Positions 3,185-16,355 of a DNA stretch of 16,551 nucleotides are shown here, one piece after another. Position numbers and translations under genes: made by a program. The notes beneath the pieces were generated by a model, which was not told the DNA's origin, made no database searches, and was given only the letters and a program-made list of their open reading frames with translations. Numbering within the stretch: position 1 is the stretch's first letter; every line of letters starts with the position of its first letter. Source of the DNA: a bacterium (GTDB lineage: Bacteria > SM23-31 > JAUVVT01); contig JAUWXV010000059.1 in the NCBI GenBank assembly GCA_030616165.1, positions 1 through 16,551 of the forward strand. Reading direction: 5' to 3'.

Positions 3185-6100
3185 TTAAAAAATAAATCTT
3201 AATCCGAAAAATATAGCTCTTTGGTTAAAAAATGTAAGGAATTCACGATTTGGCATATTTATATAAGGTTTATCATCGCTTTTAATATCTCCCACTTTAT
3301 CGTCTCCAGCTGTATAGGCACCATATTCTTCACCCGCGTACATGGGCAGGTGTAATGACTCCAAATACATTTCCTCATCGTAATCATCCGCAAAACCATC
3401 TTCATCCATGTATTGTGTATTAAATAGATTTTTGACATCTACAAAGAGCTCAAGGTTATATTTCCCGAACCTTGCTCGTTTGCCTAATCTTGCATCAATA
3501 CTATAATTAGCCTTCCATTGCAAATTATCTCTTAATGTCTTAGTGTCCAATGGATCCCATGTCATATACCTTCCTGCTTTCCAATGAAAAAGAGTGCTGA
3601 GGCGAATATCGCCAAGAGGCTTTATTCCACCTAAGGTTGGTCCCCAATCGTTAGGAGTCCTGACATTAACATTAGCACGAGCTACAGGCCGAGCAAGGGG
3701 TCTCTCCTGATATGGATTCTGCAATCCATATATTCTCTGCATTCTTTCATCCTGAAAGTATTCTTCTCTGCCAACAAATCCAGATGTAGTTACCATATAA
3801 TTATAATTAAGCCATCCAGTAATCCATCGTCCAAAACGCTTATCAATTCTCAGCTCAAATCCTCTTATATCAGCATAGTGGTTGTTCTCATAAGTATAAT
3901 AGTCCACACTTCCATCATAATTTGTATAACTTACACGGCCTGTTTGATCTGATACATCCTTATAATAACCAGCTAAATGAACCAGAAACAGGTCTCGGAC
4001 ATTATATTCCACTCCCAACTCATAAGATACCGTTTTTGGCAAATTTGCAGATGGATTACCTAATTCTTGAACACCTGACCCCCCATACCCAGACCTAATC
4101 ATGTACATATCACTGGATGAGGGCATCGAATAAAAGTGACCATAATTGAAGTACAGTTTGGCATTTTCAGAGATTGGATGAGATACTCCTATACGCGGGC
4201 TAATTTTCAGGTGACCTTTTGCAAGTTCTTTTGGTGTAACTTCAGCGAAATTGCCTCTATATTTAAATGAAAAATATTCAGAATATCTATCCACAGTAAA
4301 CCAGTCACAATTGGGATCATTGTAATCTAATCTCACTCCAAAATTAGCAATCATTCCCTCAAACTCAAGTTTATCCTGTAAATAAGCCCCAACACGGTAC
4401 GGAAAATGCTTCCACTTAACCTCCCTAAATCGCCCAAAAGCCGGAATAGTTTCTTGATAGTGTGTATTAAGATCGTCATAATTAAACATGAAGCCGGTCT
4501 TTATCTGGTTATACCTGTCGATTTGGCTGGTCAGATCAAATTTAACATTTAGTGTGTTCGTCTCCGACCAATTCCGAGGCGCAGAGCCCTCGACCCCAAA
4601 CACTCTTCCATCTACCTCTCTAACCCACAGTTCCTCGTAGTATCCATACGGTATCTCATCAACTGGTGTATTGCCAAAATATCTAACAGTAGCTGTATCA
4701 CGATTCCTATCAGGACCATTGTTAAAATTCTTGATGTGAATATGAGAGATTCTAACATTATAAAATGTACTCGGATTTAAGACATGATCAAAAGATATAC
4801 CCTCCATAGACCTAAAGACATCATATGGATTACGAGCACTAACCCAATATTGGGTGGTGTCTCTAAAGCGCCTTAAATTATCATCCCCGCTTTTTAAATA
4901 GTAACCCAGTCCAGAACCTGTAGCGCCCCTCGAAGCAGAATTAATCTCTCCATACAATACCTCGGCCGTTAATTTCATAGATGAAGATAGACGAGAAGTC
5001 AACTTTAAATTAGTAGTTCTTTCCTTATAGTAATCTCTTACCGTAGGCAAGCCAAACGCTTCCCAATTAGTTCTGTGAGAAACAAAAAAGCTCAGGTTTC
5101 CTAAATATTTACCAATCAAAGGCACCGGGCCACCAAAACTTGCATCCCCATTCCAATCTGGCTTATTACCATACTCTCTTTCTTTCTGGCCAAGTGCTCC
5201 ACTCCCTTCAATAGCACGCTGATATATAAATAAATCCCTACACTCTTCTGGAGTCCGATCGTTCACTGGGTCATCGTCTGTTAAAAGACTTTCAGAGAGC
5301 TTGTTCCACCCTTCAAATGTAACATATTGTCCTTGTGTTTCCTCGTCCCATGTTCCGTTCTTAGTACCAACCCACATAACAGCAGGATCAAGATAGGGAC
5401 GCAAACACCAATTATTATGGTTAAACACGGATACACCTGAGTGTTTTAAGTGAGGTGGGCTATACCTGAAATCAATCGAACCATGATATACACTAGGAGA
5501 ACCTTCTTTAGTAATGACATTAATTAGTCCGGAACGAACGTTACCATATTCAGCATTAAAGCCTCCCTTGATAATGTTAAGTTCCTTCACAGCACTGAGA
5601 TTAACCATCATCATAGGTCTATTTGATTGGTTATCTACAACCATCAATCCATCCATCATAAACGCAGTCTGTTCTAATCCGCCACCTCGAATATAATCAC
5701 CTTCAATTCCAGCCTGTAAATGAATATACTGCGCAATATCAGTAACCATCGGAACTTCCAATATCTGCTCAGCGTCGGCAACAATATGGCTTGCCGAAAT
5801 ATCCATTGGAACTATCTCCCTCTCAGCAGTCACTGTTATCTCCTCTCCTGCTATGGCAGTAACTCTCAGGTCAAAATCAACTGGAGTAGTATGGTCCACA
5901 TTGATAATAACCCCGGTTTTGGTCTCAACCGCATATCCCACCATAGATGCTTCTAATGAATAAGTCCCGGGAGGAATGTTTATTATAAAGTAATGACCCT
6001 CATTATCCGTTGCTCCTCCTAAGGTAGTCCCTTCAATAACAACATTTACAGCGGGCATTGGTTCACCTGTGGCAGCATCTGTAATAACTCCTGCGATTTT

Positions 6101-6187
6101 TCCTGTAATGCCGGCTAATGTTGTTCCTTGATAAACAAAGAGTGCTACACAAACCAACATTAAACTGAAAAGTAACTTTTTTTTCAT
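3185..6187 (-). CDS. TonB-dependent outer-membrane receptor with carboxypeptidase-regulatory-like domain
   Basis: 1000 residues. A signal peptide (MKKKLLFSLMLVCVALFVYQ, cleavage near TTLA-G) is followed by a carboxypeptidase-regulatory-like beta domain at about 28-108 (GKIAGVITDAATGEPMPAVN ... IPPGTYSLEASMVGY). A TonB-box-like stretch EEITVTA (115-121) comes next. The plug, about 125-228, contains YIRGGG, MMDGLMVVD and FNAEYGNVRSGLINVITKEG. A 22-strand-type barrel fills the remainder and ends in a terminal phenylalanine (FFGLRFIF), the usual barrel-insertion signal. Receptors of this type import large ligands across the outer membrane using TonB energy. AAGGAGG (6193-6199) lies 5 nt before the ATG. 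It is the first gene of the operon; the FN3 protein starts 134 nt downstream. The family is secure, the ligand unknown. Its leader contains a terminator-like hairpin (separate entry). Confidence 0.93.
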   Translation of the reverse strand: MKKKLLFSLMLVCVALFVYQGTTLAGITGKIAGVITDAATGEPMPAVNVVIEGTTLGGATDNEGHYFIINIPPGTYSLEASMVGYAVETKTGVIINVDHTTPVDFDLRVTAIAGEEITVTAEREIVPMDISASHIVADAEQILEVPMVTDIAQYIHLQAGIEGDYIRGGGLEQTAFMMDGLMVVDNQSNRPMMMVNLSAVKELNIIKGGFNAEYGNVRSGLINVITKEGSPSVYHGSIDFRYSPPHLKHSGVSVFNHNNWCLRPYLDPAVMWVGTKNGTWDEETQGQYVTFEGWNKLSESLLTDDDPVNDRTPEECRDLFIYQRAIEGSGALGQKEREYGNKPDWNGDASFGGPVPLIGKYLGNLSFFVSHRTNWEAFGLPTVRDYYKERTTNLKLTSRLSSSMKLTAEVLYGEINSASRGATGSGLGYYLKSGDDNLRRFRDTTQYWVSARNPYDVFRSMEGISFDHVLNPSTFYNVRISHIHIKNFNNGPDRNRDTATVRYFGNTPVDEIPYGYYEELWVREVDGRVFGVEGSAPRNWSETNTLNVKFDLTSQIDRYNQIKTGFMFNYDDLNTHYQETIPAFGRFREVKWKHFPYRVGAYLQDKLEFEGMIANFGVRLDYNDPNCDWFTVDRYSEYFSFKYRGNFAEVTPKELAKGHLKISPRIGVSHPISENAKLYFNYGHFYSMPSSSDMYMIRSGYGGSGVQELGNPSANLPKTVSYELGVEYNVRDLFLVHLAGYYKDVSDQTGRVSYTNYDGSVDYYTYENNHYADIRGFELRIDKRFGRWITGWLNYNYMVTTSGFVGREEYFQDERMQRIYGLQNPYQERPLARPVARANVNVRTPNDWGPTLGGIKPLGDIRLSTLFHWKAGRYMTWDPLDTKTLRDNLQWKANYSIDARLGKRARFGKYNLELFVDVKNLFNTQYMDEDGFADDYDEEMYLESLHLPMYAGEEYGAYTAGDDKVGDIKSDDKPYINMPNREFLTFFNQRAIFFGLRFIF

Positions 6188-6261
6188 CTTTACCTCCTTC
6201 TCTTAAGACAATTTAATCTACTGTAAATTTATGCACCAAAAAACAATTAATGTTAACTATC

Positions 6262-6281
6262 ACCTCCTTTCTAAGATTATA
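6262..6281 (-). promoter_or_regulatory. candidate proximal -10 box and second Shine-Dalgarno in the receptor leader
   Basis: On the minus strand TATAAT (6276-6281) is followed by AAAGGAGGTGA, a near-perfect anti-16S match, about 75 nt before the receptor start. No ORF of useful length follows that Shine-Dalgarno; TTG- or ATT-initiated frames stop within about ten codons. The -10 lacks a good -35. It may be a proximal promoter, a standby ribosome site, or the remnant of a lost leader peptide. Confidence 0.3.
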
Positions 6282-6365
6282 TTTAAATTTAAATAACAAA
6301 GAAAACCAAATTAGATGATGAACAATATAAGATAATATGAAATAAGTAATTAGGGAAAAAATTAC

Positions 6366-6406
6366 AAAAGGCAGTATAGATGCCTATACTACTCATACTG
6401 CCTTTT
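6366..6406 (-). terminator. terminator-like hairpin in the leader of the TonB receptor operon (possible attenuator)
   Basis: AAAAGGCAGTAT (6366-6377) pairs with ATACTGCCTTTT (6395-6406), a 12-bp stem flanked by T-runs on both strands, so it could terminate in either direction. In the minus direction it is followed by TTTTGTAATTTTTT. A second overlapping stem is possible: AGTATAG (6373-6379) with CTATACT (6384-6390). No plus-strand gene ends nearby. A good minus-strand promoter lies about 35 bases upstream, so the simplest reading is premature termination in the receptor leader. The alternative is an insulator upstream of a proximal promoter. Confidence 0.6.
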
Positions 6407-6441
6407 TTATTTCAAAACAAAAATTATTATTAAAATACTTT

Positions 6442-6469
6442 ATTATAAAAAATATACCATCAATATCAA
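6442..6469 (-). promoter_or_regulatory. sigma70-type promoter for the TonB receptor operon
   Basis: Reading the minus strand: TTGATA (6464-6469), a 16-bp spacer, then TATAAT (6442-6447). That is five of six and six of six matches to the housekeeping consensus. Transcription would begin near 6435 and give a leader of about 250 nt containing the terminator-like hairpin. AT-rich DNA produces chance matches, and FCB phyla may prefer other promoter forms, so the call is tentative. Confidence 0.45.
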
Positions 6470-7395
6470 ATTAAATGTTTATAATTATTTAACGGGTTTC
6501 AAAAACTTATAAAAAAAAAGATATTTTCTGAGTTAAGGAATAGGATTAAAATAATAGAATTGGAACTTTCAAATCAGTTATTGATCAGTAAAAATACATT
6601 CAATATTATAAGAGATTTCAAACTTCGATGAATTTCAAGCTCTCTCATTGAAAATATCATATAACATAGAAAGGTACTAATAATATAAAATAATCAATCA
6701 TAAATAAATTTTAAATGTAGAAAAAATTAATCTATAATTCTACCTCCCTTAAATTATTGTTACATAAATTGTTTATTAGTATATATTTACAAATTCTAAA
6801 ATATAAATAATTATAGAAATTATACTGATTATGAAATAGTATAATAAATTTTTTATAGTTTGTCAAGGTTTTTTTTAAATATTTTAATCTTTACCTAATG
6901 GAATGATAATTATCATCACTAAATGCTGTCCATATGAAAGGGAAATAACCGGACTTGAAGAATCAACCTTTAAGTTGCTAAACATCATTTTAGGCTTAAC
7001 AGAGGAGGCTAAGAATCAATTTTTTATTTTTAGTCTAAGTTTTACCTTAGATTTAAATTGCAGCTGCAGTTTTATCATCTTCAGTTTCACATTTTCTGCC
7101 AAAAATAACTTTCTTTTACAATAAATTATATACATTCTTAAATAATTTTTGAAAAAATTTTTATAATTTTAATATATTAAATTAAAAAAAATCATATATG
7201 CAAATTTAAAAAGTTAATTTTGTTTATTTTAACCTGAAAACCTGATACACTAATTAAAAGCTCAAGCAGGCATTAATGTGGAAATATGTTATTTCACTTA
7301 TTCCAGTTTTATACTTATCATCTACCCAATTTAAAGGGTAATTCCGCGAAGTGATAAAAACAAATAAAAACCGATAAATTTAAATATTTTATTGA

Positions 7396-7415
7396 TTACC
7401 ATTATAGAATGGTAA
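7396..7415. repeat. 8-bp inverted repeat spanning a small-ORF start codon
   Basis: TTACCATT (7396-7403), loop ATAG, AATGGTAA (7408-7415). The ATG of the small ORF at 7409 lies inside the right arm, so the hairpin would hide the start codon in RNA, or the site could be an operator. Confidence 0.4.
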
Positions 7416-7639
7416 AATTAGAAAAGTCTAAAAATAGAGATGAAATTAAATATCTGAAAAAGATATTAGAGAAAGTAAGAGAAATTAATTCAAAGGCTGA
7501 CCATCTTATAACAGTATTTAGAGAATGGTATTATACACCTTTTAACTGCCCATATGCTGGTTTCAAGTATAGGAACGGTTCACGTAACAGCGTCAACAAC
7601 AATAATAACAATAATTATAACAAAAATAATAGAAATTGA
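7409..7639 (+). CDS. hypothetical small protein, lysine-rich helix with Asn-rich tail
   Basis: 76 residues. About 1-40 is a charged heptad-like helix (EIKYLKKILEKVREINSKA), then an aromatic segment (REWYYTPFNCPYAGFKY), then a low-complexity asparagine tail encoded by AAC/AAT runs. There is no recognisable family. No Shine-Dalgarno precedes the ATG and a hairpin covers it. The charged, patterned helix is better than expected for random AT-rich sequence, but this could still be noncoding. Confidence 0.3.
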   Translation: MVKLEKSKNRDEIKYLKKILEKVREINSKADHLITVFREWYYTPFNCPYAGFKYRNGSRNSVNNNNNNNYNKNNRN

Positions 7640-7854
7640 ATTTCATATATATTTTGGTAGTTCGTAAGTTTATGGTAAATGCCTTTAATTTATGATTATA
7701 AAGACTTTATTATGTTTATGCGTCTAACCACCTAAATATCATTTTCATTTAAATATTGATGATTTGCAAAACATTCTTGTACTTTTAATAGAAAAACCAA
7801 AAACTTAATATATTAAATATTCTTACTCATTAATTGATATAAAGGTGATTTAAA

Positions 7855-8064
7855 TTGAGTTTTACATACGATAGATTAGTAAATTGGCCTTCAGACACAA
7901 ACCATTTTGCAATTTCAAATAATATGTATAATTATTATCTACTTAAAGAAAAATTTAAGGGATTAGAGCAGCAGATCGACAGATTAGAACAAATTATATC
8001 ATCAAATTCTTTCCCCATTATTATATACACAATAAAAATTTGGATTTCCAGCTTTATATGTTAA
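7855..8064 (+). CDS. hypothetical small coiled-coil protein, TTG start
   Basis: 69 residues from a TTG with a good ribosome site, AAAGGTGAT, just upstream; this is the best argument that it is real. Residues ~28-50 form a coiled-coil-like helix (LLKEKFKGLEQQIDRLEQII). The tail is hydrophobic (FPIIIYTIKIWISSFIC). The tail may be an artefact: a second frame, open from 7959, continues with helical sequence to 8225, so a frameshift may have split one ~120-residue protein. No family recognised. Confidence 0.35.
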   Translation: MSFTYDRLVNWPSDTNHFAISNNMYNYYLLKEKFKGLEQQIDRLEQIISSNSFPIIIYTIKIWISSFIC

Positions 8065-8225
8065 AGGATACTCTGGAGTTTATTAGATCAATTGTGAAGA
8101 AATATTCTAAGGGATTTTTAATTGAAACGAATTTTACATTTCGTCTTACAAATTGTGAAAAAAGAGTAAATACGATTTTCTCAAAAGTTCAACAATCATC
8201 AAATGGTAATCCCATTAGAGAATAA
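8040..8225 (+). CDS. possible downstream half of a frameshifted small helical protein
   Basis: A TTG at 8040 opens 61 codons (LKDTLEFIRSIVKKYSKGFL ... CEKRVNTIFSKVQQ), helical and charged. It has no ribosome site of its own and overlaps the ORF at 7855-8064 by 25 nt in another frame. It reads best as the continuation of that ORF after a frameshift, either a real mutation, programmed, or a base-calling error. Function unknown. Confidence 0.25.
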   Translation: MDFQLYMLKDTLEFIRSIVKKYSKGFLIETNFTFRLTNCEKRVNTIFSKVQQSSNGNPIRE

Positions 8226-8296
8226 AAAAAACCATTGAACATGATATTTTTGCAACTAATTAATTTAATATCTATATTATAACCGATAATCTTATT

Positions 8297-8319
8297 CAGT
8301 TCAGTAAACTGTTAGTGAA
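8297..8319. repeat. outlying copy of the CAGTTCAGT...GTTAGTGAA motif
   Basis: This 23-nt segment matches 9803-9825 at 21 of 23 positions (differences at 8306 and 8309). It contains CAGTT-cagta-AACTG and a GTTAGTGAA half. It lies ~170 nt upstream of the amidohydrolase start and belongs to the TTCA-N-TGAA family clustered near the winged-helix gene. Confidence 0.55.
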
Positions 8320-8491
8320 TAATTTTTAAAGTATATTAAAAAATATTTTTTTAAACTTGATATTTATTTTTCTTTTTACTATCATCTTTTTGAAAATGAA
8401 TTAATAATTATAAAATCTTTTGTTTTATAATCAATTTATTACAAAAAGGATTACTAAATGGTTAATTTTTTAGTAATATTAGGAGCAAAAA

Positions 8492-9650: not shown

Positions 9651-9780
9651 TGATAAAAATAATACAAGTTGGAAATTTAAACTCCTGTTTGTATTAAGAG
9701 GTTGGTGTGGATAAGAAATCCTAAGGTCAATCCGTGAGGGATATTGTCTCTCAAGTTTGAGGCAGGAATTGGAGCTATTT

Positions 9781-9851
9781 CAGTTCAGTGAACCGCATGG
9801 AACAGTTCAGTGAAGTGTTAGTGAACTGAATATGGCAGTTCAGTGAACTGC
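9781..9851. repeat. cluster of TTCA-N-TGAA palindromes (operator-like array)
   Basis: Within 71 nt: CAGTTCAGTGAACCG (9781-9795), CAGTTCAGTGAAGTG (9803-9817), the inverted half AGTGAACTG (9820-9828), and a perfect palindrome GCAGTTCAGTGAACTGC (9835-9851, 8-bp arms around one G). The last ends 18 nt past the stop of the winged-helix gene. Repeated same-core dyads suggest binding sites for a dimeric regulator; the adjacent winged-helix protein is the obvious candidate. Hairpin formation is also possible. Confidence 0.7.
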
Positions 9852-9869
9852 ACAAAATCCATAAATAGA

Positions 9870-10457
9870 TTATTTTATATAAACATTAATCAAACTTTTG
9901 AGTTGATTTTTATTCAATTCCTTTTTAACAATTTCAAATCCCTTATTTGTAAGCCTTATAAACCAATAGTTTCCTTTTCTTTCCCTGATTATCAATCCTG
10001 AATCTACTAATTTCTTTAAAATATTAGAAATCGTCGTCTTTATTTTTCTATTTATTTTATCGGGGTATAAATTCGATGTTAAACTCCCTACAGGTATCCA
10101 ATTCCCTCCTGATTCATTCTGAAGCTTTGCAATAAATAAAAATCCTTTCTGTTCTAATTGTGTAAGGCCATTAAAAGCAGATTCTGAATTTACTGGAATT
10201 TTACTTTTTAATTTATTCTCACTTTCGATTTTATTATCTGTAACCTTTTGGCGGTTCAATGAACCGCCACTGAACTGCTTGAGTAGTTCAGTGAACTGTT
10301 TTGAGAGAGGGCACAGTGCCATAGTTAGTTTGGTTAGAACTTTTAATCGATTCTCAAGATCCTTATTATCTGCTTTTACTTTTTTAAAAGACCGGCGAAC
10401 ATTTTGTTTGAATTTCTGAAATTCCTTTTCTGATATCTTTTTCTTAAAAAACCACAT
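9870..10457 (-). CDS. coiled-coil winged-helix DNA-binding protein
   Basis: 195 residues. A basic N-terminal helix or coiled coil (about 5-45, EFQKFKQNVRRSFKKVKADN) leads into a polar linker (about 50-97). The C-terminus (about 98-185) reads as a MarR/TrmB-like winged helix: LTQLEQKGFLFIAKLQ, WIPVGSLTSNLYPD, recognition helix KIKTTISNILKKLVDSGLI, then the wing RERKGNYWFIRLTNKGFEIV. It is probably a DNA-binding regulator. No Shine-Dalgarno precedes the ATG. Residues 54-70 are encoded by palindromic TTCA-N-TGAA sites, so the gene carries motifs that also flank it. The architecture resembles winged-helix proteins I associate with DPANN archaea, which is only an impression. The target and role are unknown. 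Confidence 0.75.
   Translation of the reverse strand: MWFFKKKISEKEFQKFKQNVRRSFKKVKADNKDLENRLKVLTKLTMALCPLSKQFTELLKQFSGGSLNRQKVTDNKIESENKLKSKIPVNSESAFNGLTQLEQKGFLFIAKLQNESGGNWIPVGSLTSNLYPDKINRKIKTTISNILKKLVDSGLIIRERKGNYWFIRLTNKGFEIVKKELNKNQLKSLINVYIK
10250..10297. promoter_or_regulatory. palindromic sites inside the winged-helix coding sequence
   Basis: GGCGGTTCAATGAACCGCC (10250-10268) is a perfect 9-bp-arm palindrome around one A. It is followed by the half-site TGAACTGC (10271-10278) and by AGTTCAGTGAACT (10285-10297), a 6-bp-arm palindrome around G. They share the core of the 9781-9851 cluster. They encode the low-constraint linker (residues ~54-70), which could tolerate DNA sites. Confidence 0.6.
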
Positions 10458-10609: not shown

Positions 10610-11116
10610 GTGGATATAAAAATAGGTATTGAGGATTTAGAATTTATAGAAAAATTAAAGCAAGATAAGGCTTATACTGTAATAAACTGTTTATTGGAAT
10701 ATAATACTTTAAGATTTGAGGATATTAGATTTTTGAGGGCATTGAAAAAACCAAATACATTATTCCTACCACAAGAACTAAAATGGATTATTGCCAATCA
10801 TAGATTTTTATTAAATCTGGTTAAGGGAAGAACAAAAGAGGCTAACAAGAAAATAGGTAGAAAGATATTTCTCAAATTATACAGGTACTCTGATAATGCT
10901 TTTTCTATGGCTAAGAAATTAAAAGTAAATAAAGTTACAAAATACAGATGGTTTGCTATATTTGAAGAAAAAGATTTACTTTGGGTGAACCCGTTCACTT
11001 ATCAATCAAAAAACAATGAAACTTTAATGATGTTAAATACTGTTTATTACCCAAACCTAATTAAGCTAATTAAAGTATTAATACATCAACAATTAGCTAA
11101 TGAAAGTTTAAGATAG
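10610..11116 (+). CDS. unknown protein with helix-turn-helix-like segment related to the HNH neighbour
   Basis: 168 residues from a GTG start with GAAGGT shortly upstream. No family recognised. Residues 97-126 (AFSMAKKLKVNKVTKYRWFA ... LLWV) align without gaps to residues 40-68 of the next gene's product (YRLADELKIHHITAIKWVDY ... LLEKV), sharing A, LK, T, W, F, E, LL and V. Both fit a helix-turn-helix reading. The N-terminal 90 residues are helical and unassigned; the C-terminus (YYPNLIKLIKVLIHQQLA) is amphipathic. It lies 18 nt upstream of the HNH-like gene on the same strand and is probably co-transcribed. A DNA-recognition role is inferred. It could be an HNH relative that lost its nuclease part. 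Confidence 0.6.
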   Translation: MDIKIGIEDLEFIEKLKQDKAYTVINCLLEYNTLRFEDIRFLRALKKPNTLFLPQELKWIIANHRFLLNLVKGRTKEANKKIGRKIFLKLYRYSDNAFSMAKKLKVNKVTKYRWFAIFEEKDLLWVNPFTYQSKNNETLMMLNTVYYPNLIKLIKVLIHQQLANESLR

Positions 11117-11124
11117 ATTTAAAT

Positions 11125-11146
11125 AGTATTGTCTATGTACAATACT
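11125..11146. repeat. 8-bp inverted repeat at the HNH gene start
   Basis: AGTATTGT (11125-11132), loop CTATGT, ACAATACT (11139-11146), immediately before an in-frame ATG at 11147 and overlapping the alternative TTG (11129) and ATG (11135) starts. It may be an operator for a helix-turn-helix dimer or an RNA hairpin limiting initiation. The left arm overlaps the TATTGTCTATGT element. Confidence 0.45.
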
Positions 11147-11656
11147 ATGGTATTTAGAGGTTATTCTGGTTTAAAAGAACATTTAAAGAAATGTCCTAAA
11201 GGTTCTTTAATTTATAATTATTTAAAATCAGGTATAGTAACTAATCGTTATAGACTTGCTGATGAATTAAAAATACATCATATAACTGCGATAAAATGGG
11301 TTGATTATTTTGATGAACTTGGTTTATTGGAAAAAGTAGAAAGTATAGTTAATGCTAAAAATTTTATTTTAAAAAAGGACAAAATAGAAGAACTTAAATG
11401 GAATGATATACCTCAAAAAACTTTATATAAAGCAGAGATAGAAAGAAAAAAGAAAGCTCAACACCTAAAAAAAAGATTTAGGATCTTAAAAAAATTTAAT
11501 TTTACATGCCAGTCTTATGGAAGAAAAGCACCAGAAGTTAAGCTACATGTAGACCATAAAAACCCTTTGAGTAAGGGTGGAAGTTCTAAAGAAAGCAATT
11601 TAATTGTTGCCTGTTCTGATTATAATAATGGAAAATCTGATGTATTATTATTTTAA
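11135..11656 (+). CDS. helix-turn-helix protein with degenerate HNH nuclease domain
   Basis: 173 residues from the first ATG; TTG 11129 and ATG 11147 are in frame and none has a Shine-Dalgarno, so the start is open. About 37-69 is helix-turn-helix-like (RYRLADELKIHHITAIKWVD). A basic helix (~100-120) leads to the HNH domain: TCQSYGRKAPEVKLHVDHKN, then SKGGSSKESNL, ACSDYNNGKSD. The HVDH histidine (141) and N155 match the HNH active-site pattern. HNH domains of this type normally hold zinc with two CxxC pairs; here the second cysteine of each pair is tyrosine (C125-x-x-Y128 and C160-x-x-Y163). Each needs only one TGT/TGC to TAT/TAC change. The nuclease may therefore be zinc-free, weakened or dead. 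The layout suggests a sequence-targeted nuclease or homing-type element, which is an inference. Confidence 0.7.
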   Translation: MYNTMVFRGYSGLKEHLKKCPKGSLIYNYLKSGIVTNRYRLADELKIHHITAIKWVDYFDELGLLEKVESIVNAKNFILKKDKIEELKWNDIPQKTLYKAEIERKKKAQHLKKRFRILKKFNFTCQSYGRKAPEVKLHVDHKNPLSKGGSSKESNLIVACSDYNNGKSDVLLF

Positions 11657-16320: not shown

Positions 16321-16329
16321 CAAAATGAG

Positions 16330-16355
16330 TAAGTGCGGTTCACGAACCGTACTTA
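16330..16355. repeat. palindromic insert within repeat copy B
   Basis: TAAGTGCGGTTC (16330-16341) pairs with GAACCGTACTTA (16344-16355) around AC, with one G-T mismatch. The 26-bp element is absent from the matching place in copy A, as shown by the spacing of the conserved TGACGTT and CAGAACCTCAA blocks. Its CGGTTCA/GAACCG core resembles the palindromes near the winged-helix gene. Confidence 0.6.

Follow-up and report, generated by a model that had tools for sequence, protein, structure and literature searches.

A winged-helix gene in the genome of a bacterium of the SM23-31 lineage is most likely a laterally acquired orphan of DPANN-archaeal type. It belongs to a family, here called type B, whose archaeal members are encoded close to orc1/cdc6, and it carries palindromic sites both inside and just past its own coding sequence. 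The gene (9870-10457, minus strand) lies in a window, by which we mean the whole analysed stretch of 16,551 nucleotides. In this family the link between protein, private array and orc1/cdc6 is well supported, and it is probable that the window gene is an orphan member of it and that the private arrays serve autoregulation and, near orc1/cdc6, origin control or segregation. The DPANN are a very large and almost uncultivated group in which origin control and chromosome segregation are essentially unknown, and we found no open papers joining DPANN, chromosome segregation and winged helix. The observations below point to a system of origin-associated control or segregation in these archaea that has not been described before.

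Palindromic sites in and beside the window gene

Five dyads with the core TTCANTGAA are found at the gene. Three of them lie past its stop codon: dyad 1, AGTTCAGTGAACC (9782-9794; its 11-bp core, 9783-9793, is perfect, and the outer bases A/C are asymmetric), dyad 2, AGTTCAGTGAAGT (9804-9816; a near-palindrome centred 22 bp from dyad 1), and dyad 3, GCAGTTCAGTGAACTGC (9835-9851; a 17-bp perfect palindrome centred 33 bp from dyad 2). A half-site, TGAAC, is found in the same region at 9822-9826. The coding DNA of residues about 54-69 contains dyad 4, TGGCGGTTCAATGAACCGCCA (10249-10269; a 21-bp perfect palindrome), a further TGAAC half-site (10271-10275) and dyad 5, AGTTCAGTGAACT (10285-10297; a 13-bp perfect palindrome centred 32 bp from dyad 4). 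The sites are restricted to the linker and the region past the stop, and no dyads were found upstream of the window gene. The initial annotation had described this same arrangement, with at least three full or near palindromes and half-sites past the stop, and two palindromes and a half-site in the linker-coding DNA. It had also proposed that the flanking bases co-vary symmetrically; this is clear in only two of the five sites.

The palindromes are real and far above chance. With 0.69 copies expected in the window, the core TTCANTGAA is present 6 times, a count matched in 0 of 200 shuffles, and GTTCANTGAAC occurs 4 times, in a 520-bp stretch, against 0.01 expected from dinucleotide shuffles. 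The 80 nt past the stop contain six GTTCA/TGAAC half-sites, the shuffle maximum being 4. When the window gene was shuffled synonymously (n=2000), two such dyads were obtained in no case and one in 31. As the two in-gene dyads are also read in different codon phases (as QFTEL and GSLNR), the constraint behind them appears to be on the DNA rather than on the protein. A general test for inverted repeats in the window gene alone gave 40 against 29 expected; this is not significant because chance pairs in AT-rich DNA swamp the signal, and the motif-specific test is significant.

Two more distant places in the window had also been put forward as related copies. The one given as 8297-8319 is indeed a decayed extra unit of the array, CAGTTCAGTaAACTGTTAGTGAAt (8297-8321), about 21 of whose 25 bases, read by eye, match the segment at about 9803-9827. 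It adjoins a second very AT-rich stretch of the window (6001-8300, 22-25% GC) that lacks long genes. The other, offered as a possible copy at 16330-16355, is not convincing: the intergenic stretch there contains a near-perfect dyad, AAGTGCGGTTCACGAACCGTACTT (16326-16350), built around GCGGTTCACGAACCGT (16333-16349), and its core spacing differs from that of the array. It is probably unrelated and was dropped as an array member.

The encoded protein and its archaeal relatives

The 195-aa product comprises an N-terminal coiled coil, a linker (residues about 54-72) and a C-terminal winged helix of the MarR/Lrs14/AspA type. Against the MarR family (PF01047) it scores 26.0 bits, the Pfam gathering cut-off being 24.6, with a best stretch that aligns 22 residues only, and all NCBIfam models match it far below cut-off. 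A profile of the DPANN B family covers the coiled coil, the linker and the winged helix (model positions 1-199, E = 5e-46); since the alignment behind this profile includes the window protein itself, the independent figure is the single-sequence match to archaeal proteins, with E down to 2.6e-18 over residues 1-181. The window protein is 20-29% identical to the aligned archaeal homologues, and its start, MWFFKKK, may be compared with MWFIKKK at an array-bearing gene of Woesearchaeota. No close homologues were recovered in scans of phages, plasmids, viral contigs and genome contigs. A single-sequence AlphaFold2 prediction gave a poor model (pLDDT 52.5).

The link to DPANN was obtained by DNA pattern only, using two dyads 5-35 bp apart as the query in 84,980 genomes. 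This returned 101 loci, two of which are from Woesearchaeota and have exactly the 21-bp gap of the window; nearly all of the remainder look like unrelated operator-like or chance pairs, and the matches on viral contigs had no related protein beside them. At the protein level, single-sequence searches detected relatives in 56 of 281 genomes of the Woesearchaeota class, and profile searches in 151 of 265 Woesearchaeota-type genomes.

The archaeal module consists of two genes, A plus either B or C, and A adjoins B or C in most of the loci seen. Type B, the type of the window gene, combines the coiled coil with a winged helix of the pattern LTxTQK...LAxELYPxKxYxxVRSTxSxY...KGKxTY. Type C has an N-terminal half like that of B, followed by a linker (e.g. 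VQTAVQT or SFMNVQS) and a different winged helix. Type A is composed of a coiled coil, an SSxGNxGV motif, a repeat-rich linker and a winged helix. None of the three types reaches an NCBIfam cut-off, and their Pfam matches are generic, mostly to winged-helix families. In A-type genes (e.g. L375:1987-2625 and L398:1958-2623) the SSxGNxGV stretch, which directly precedes the repeat linker, shows strong conservation in the protein and in the DNA (roughly TTCCAnnGGAAATnnnGGGG), and it may be more than a protein motif.

Signs of foreign origin and decayed copies in the bacterium

The genes around the window gene are bacterial, encoding a TonB-type receptor, a PorV-like protein, HU, an amidohydrolase, a GH2 enzyme and a cytochrome. 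Around 9.8-12 kb the DNA has a GC content of only 24-32%, compared with 41-43% for the better flanking genes. When 98 bacterial genomes (the host and 97 relatives) were searched with the single sequence, matches came from the host genome only, and the family profile found nothing convincing in 144 other bacterial genomes, the hits being weak coiled-coil or wing fragments. The host has B-type matches only, a profile search having detected no partner gene A; the window gene is an orphan copy among bacterial neighbours, close neither to a gene A nor to orc1/cdc6. The two adjoining genes at 10610-11116 and 11129-11656 bear no relation to genes of the archaeal locus. The former is AT-rich and could be assigned to no family. 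The latter (plus strand) encodes a protein with a helix-turn-helix-like part at the N terminus and, at the C terminus, an HNH domain similar to that of IscB; the NCBIfam match (E 1.6e-10) falls far short of the cut-off.

Relics of the window gene are present elsewhere in the same genome as two decayed pieces, on contigs C72 and C326, with 82-92% DNA identity and other genes around them. These pieces bear on whether an archaeal fragment was misjoined into a bacterial contig during assembly, an explanation for which the composition of the island, unlike that of its flanks, would speak. A chimera accounts neither for two relics on two other contigs, in other gene contexts, nor for the low identity of the window gene to its archaeal homologues, and we consider it extremely improbable.

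The segment GGAATTGGAGCTATTTCAG (9765-9783) is common to the window and the decayed copy on C326, and forms an edge of the duplicated block. This identical 5' flank, together with the decayed copy at 8297, shows that a block was copied, as would be the case if the palindromes were a small REP- or MITE-like repeat element that had landed in and beside the gene by chance. Against such an element, GTTCANTGAAC has only 9 exact sites in the 3.74 Mb host genome, 4 of them in the window array and 1 in the decayed gene copy on C326; the reversed control pattern has one site. The genome-wide scan proposed in the initial annotation therefore finds a motif that is not scattered, 5 of the 9 sites being with the window gene or its relic. 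As the archaeal relatives furthermore possess phased arrays of their own with other sequences, a mobile repeat of this kind is very unlikely to be the source of the palindromes.

Arrays at the archaeal loci

Most archaeal modules carry an array of their own, the sequence of which is private to the locus. In the 200-nt regions upstream of B, inverted repeats exceed those of shuffles in 64% and direct repeats in 79%, the corresponding figures for control upstream regions at these loci being 1% and 4%. The repeated motif varies from locus to locus and includes GTTCANTGAAC, AGACGTCT, CGTCTAC, GACGCGTC, CGTCANTGACG, GTTCGNCGAAC, CGTAANTTACG and others. Homologues of the window gene thus do have dyad arrays at their own genes, and neither of the two outcomes named in the initial annotation as refuting it, homologues that lack palindromes and a motif scattered genome-wide, was obtained. 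The half-site spacings upstream of B peak at 11, 21, 32, 43 and 53 bp, hardly any falling between these values, and the B repeats therefore lie on one face of the helix; the spacings of 22, 33 and 32 bp in the window fit this helical phasing.

The B arrays are situated just upstream of a TATA-like box, which is most often at -27 to -32. This position favours plain autoregulation, by which the protein would be an ordinary MarR-like repressor, the array its operator, and the proximity of orc1/cdc6 described below a conserved gene order without functional meaning. The same explanation draws support from unrelated genomes, Streptomyces among them, in which the GTTCANTGAAC dyad occurs in pairs that look like operators, and from the lack of other genomic targets of the motif in the three genomes checked, in which every genomic GTTCANTGAAC is within the array just before gene B (three sites in G098, two in G099 and two in G247). 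The family indeed resembles MarR/TetR-type autoregulators in its winged helix and in using a common type of dyad, but is distinguished from them by long phased arrays, the coiled coil, the origin linkage and the paired gene A. An operator requires neither such arrays nor repeats in the coding linkers of A and C, nor does it require a link to an initiator gene, and on balance we find it rather unlikely that autoregulation is the whole of the function.

Repeats within coding DNA are a property of A and C. Direct repeats beyond those of synonymous shuffles are present in 91% of A genes and 90% of C genes, versus 11% of controls and 3% of B genes, and inverted repeats in 52% of C genes, versus 2% of controls and 0% of archaeal B genes (the sample comprised 22 classified A genes and 21 C genes, with 24 further A-like genes left out). 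The unit TGTCCAAACAGCTGTCCAAACA in linker DNA is read as VQTAVQT or SKQLSKQ, GTTCATGAAC-type units are read in two codon phases, and A units such as CAATCAATC are read in all three frames; because tetranucleotide units shift frame by themselves, the shuffle test is for A the stronger evidence than the change of frame. The dyads in the linker of the window gene are without counterpart in archaeal B genes, and their layout resembles that of type C.

Linkage to orc1/cdc6 and the gene neighborhood

Among the matches listed, 62 genomes have orc1/cdc6 and B or C on the same contig, and in every one of them the two are 2.7-33 kb apart; the distance is <=20 kb in 61 of the 62 and has a median of 7.1 kb. 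Sixteen further genomes among these matches are fragmented assemblies, with orc1/cdc6 and the module on different contigs. The count leaves out three of the first fifteen genomes: in G333 and G286 the only hits are weak matches to the coiled coil that are distant or on a different contig, and G180 lacks a strong match to orc1/cdc6. On each of ten long contigs (0.25-0.83 Mb), the chance of such closeness to orc1/cdc6 is 1-5%.

The common gene order is DNA polymerase D (polD) large subunit, polD small subunit, orc1/cdc6, a PRC-barrel protein, small genes, A, and B or C, where the first gene is one that we take from its sequence to be the polD large subunit. A tyrosine recombinase is often close to the module. 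At loci L448-L457 the interval from orc1/cdc6 to A repeatedly contains the PRC-barrel protein, a conserved family-less small protein and a small winged-helix protein, and genes of the argS and LonB type join the region in some lineages.

The GC skew of two near-complete archaeal contigs (G192 and G169) has no turning point at the module locus, and the origin is accordingly placed from orc1/cdc6 only. In 12 genomes no ParA-type ATPase was found close to the module, and a classical partition system is the less likely for it. The interpretation of the initial annotation, an autoregulated or partition/replication-like system, is partly supported: its replication-like part is upheld by the linkage to orc1/cdc6, with DPANN archaea rather than the bacterium as the setting.

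The neighborhood also raises the prospect that the arrays are themselves an origin or origin element, with A and C as initiators that contain iterons inside their own genes. There are precedents for such an arrangement: ori-lambda is located within gene O (PMC6022878), and RepN-type rep genes carry iterons (PMC4490491). The direct repeats of several codon phases in A and C linker DNA, and the adjacency of the module to orc1/cdc6 and DNA polymerase D, agree with this proposal. The module shares with lambda O and RepA_N plasmid rep the presence of repeats inside its own coding DNA (in A and C, and in the window gene, where they take the form of dyads and not of iterons). It differs in that those initiators belong to phages or plasmids and no similarity to them was detected, whereas here we have a chromosomal gene pair with the B sites at a promoter. 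Moreover, Orc1/Cdc6, the expected initiator, is present, the repeats of A, being short and tetranucleotide-like, are not typical iterons, and the GC skew lends no support, so that we hold this proposal to be unlikely.

Comparison with known systems

The nearest worked example is AspA of Sulfolobus pNOB8. As a winged-helix dimer, it recognizes a 23-bp palindrome that precedes its own gene, and it spreads over 200 bp (PMC5120986). AspA, of the AspA-ParB-ParA system, is likewise an archaeal winged-helix protein, with a similarity to the present family that is marginal (E 0.008-0.017) and confined to the recognition helix and wing. The present family differs from it in the long N-terminal coiled coil, the locus-specific arrays, the chromosomal location, the linkage to orc1/cdc6 and the lack of a ParA-type gene nearby. 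SegB of the SegAB cassette binds site-specifically to palindromes upstream of its own cassette, which have been proposed to be an archaeal centromere (PMC5120986). The likeness lies in the palindromes by the own gene, and the difference in the absence of a SegA-type neighbor at the module; SegB did not appear in the results of any search carried out here. WhiP, the winged-helix initiator of Sulfolobus oriC3, is encoded beside this origin and specific for it (PMC4010727), an example of an archaeal origin being defined by a winged-helix protein; it too did not surface as a match in our searches. By its description it stands apart, serving its origin in place of Cdc6, whereas the archaeal module has orc1/cdc6 in the cluster. 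The module is filed as a member of none of the AspA, WhiP, lambda O and RepN-type systems.

Functional implications

In the most likely working, a winged-helix dimer, held together by the coiled coil, would occupy the dyads cooperatively, always from the same side of the DNA helix. To judge by the position of the arrays, the bound protein would occupy the B promoter, and would thereby repress or tune its own gene. The resulting nucleoprotein complex near the origin would probably control initiation or help chromosome segregation. With protein and sites in one short segment, both can change together.

The bacterial copy would have moved without its archaeal partners; it retains dyads, in the linker and past the stop, and two further copies have decayed. 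That perfect palindromes of 21 bp and 17 bp persist alongside copies in decay suggests that protein and sites of the window are still, or were until recently, in use together.

More tentatively, and with rather less than even confidence, we propose that DPANN chromosomes possess a new kind of origin-associated system, in which a winged-helix pair and arrays partly within its own coding sequences, diversifying quickly by lineage, form an origin-side centromere or an initiation-control complex, and in which gene and sites can be transferred together to a bacterium. In dozens of genomes the module provides a defined pair of proteins, with defined sites, at a defined position close to orc1/cdc6, and this makes binding, specificity and a role at the origin directly testable. 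It also provides a natural series of protein-site pairs for the study of co-change, in which the sites of A and C double as protein linkers.

Other dyad-bearing loci

Several other loci with dyads have distinctive layouts of their own. In Streptomyces and Actinomadura (L194, L201, L203, L204, L231, L232, L243 and L251) two GGTTCANTGAACGAACC-type dyads flank a promoter-like stretch; this is a common operator layout and is unrelated to the window gene. Gemmatimonadota (L178, L182, L186, L190, L210, L217, L221, L225, L237 and L252) have many GTTCANTGAAC pairs about 20-22 bp apart, in apparently unrelated places. A repeated element resembling a hairpin, GGTTCAATGAAC-N6-GTTCATTGAACC, is present three times in one Marinicaulis genome (L197, L218 and L223). 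The viral contig IMGVR_UViG_3300027848_000819 (L054:4790-4878) has tandem 26-bp repeats at its end, each with a GTTCAGTGAAC dyad.
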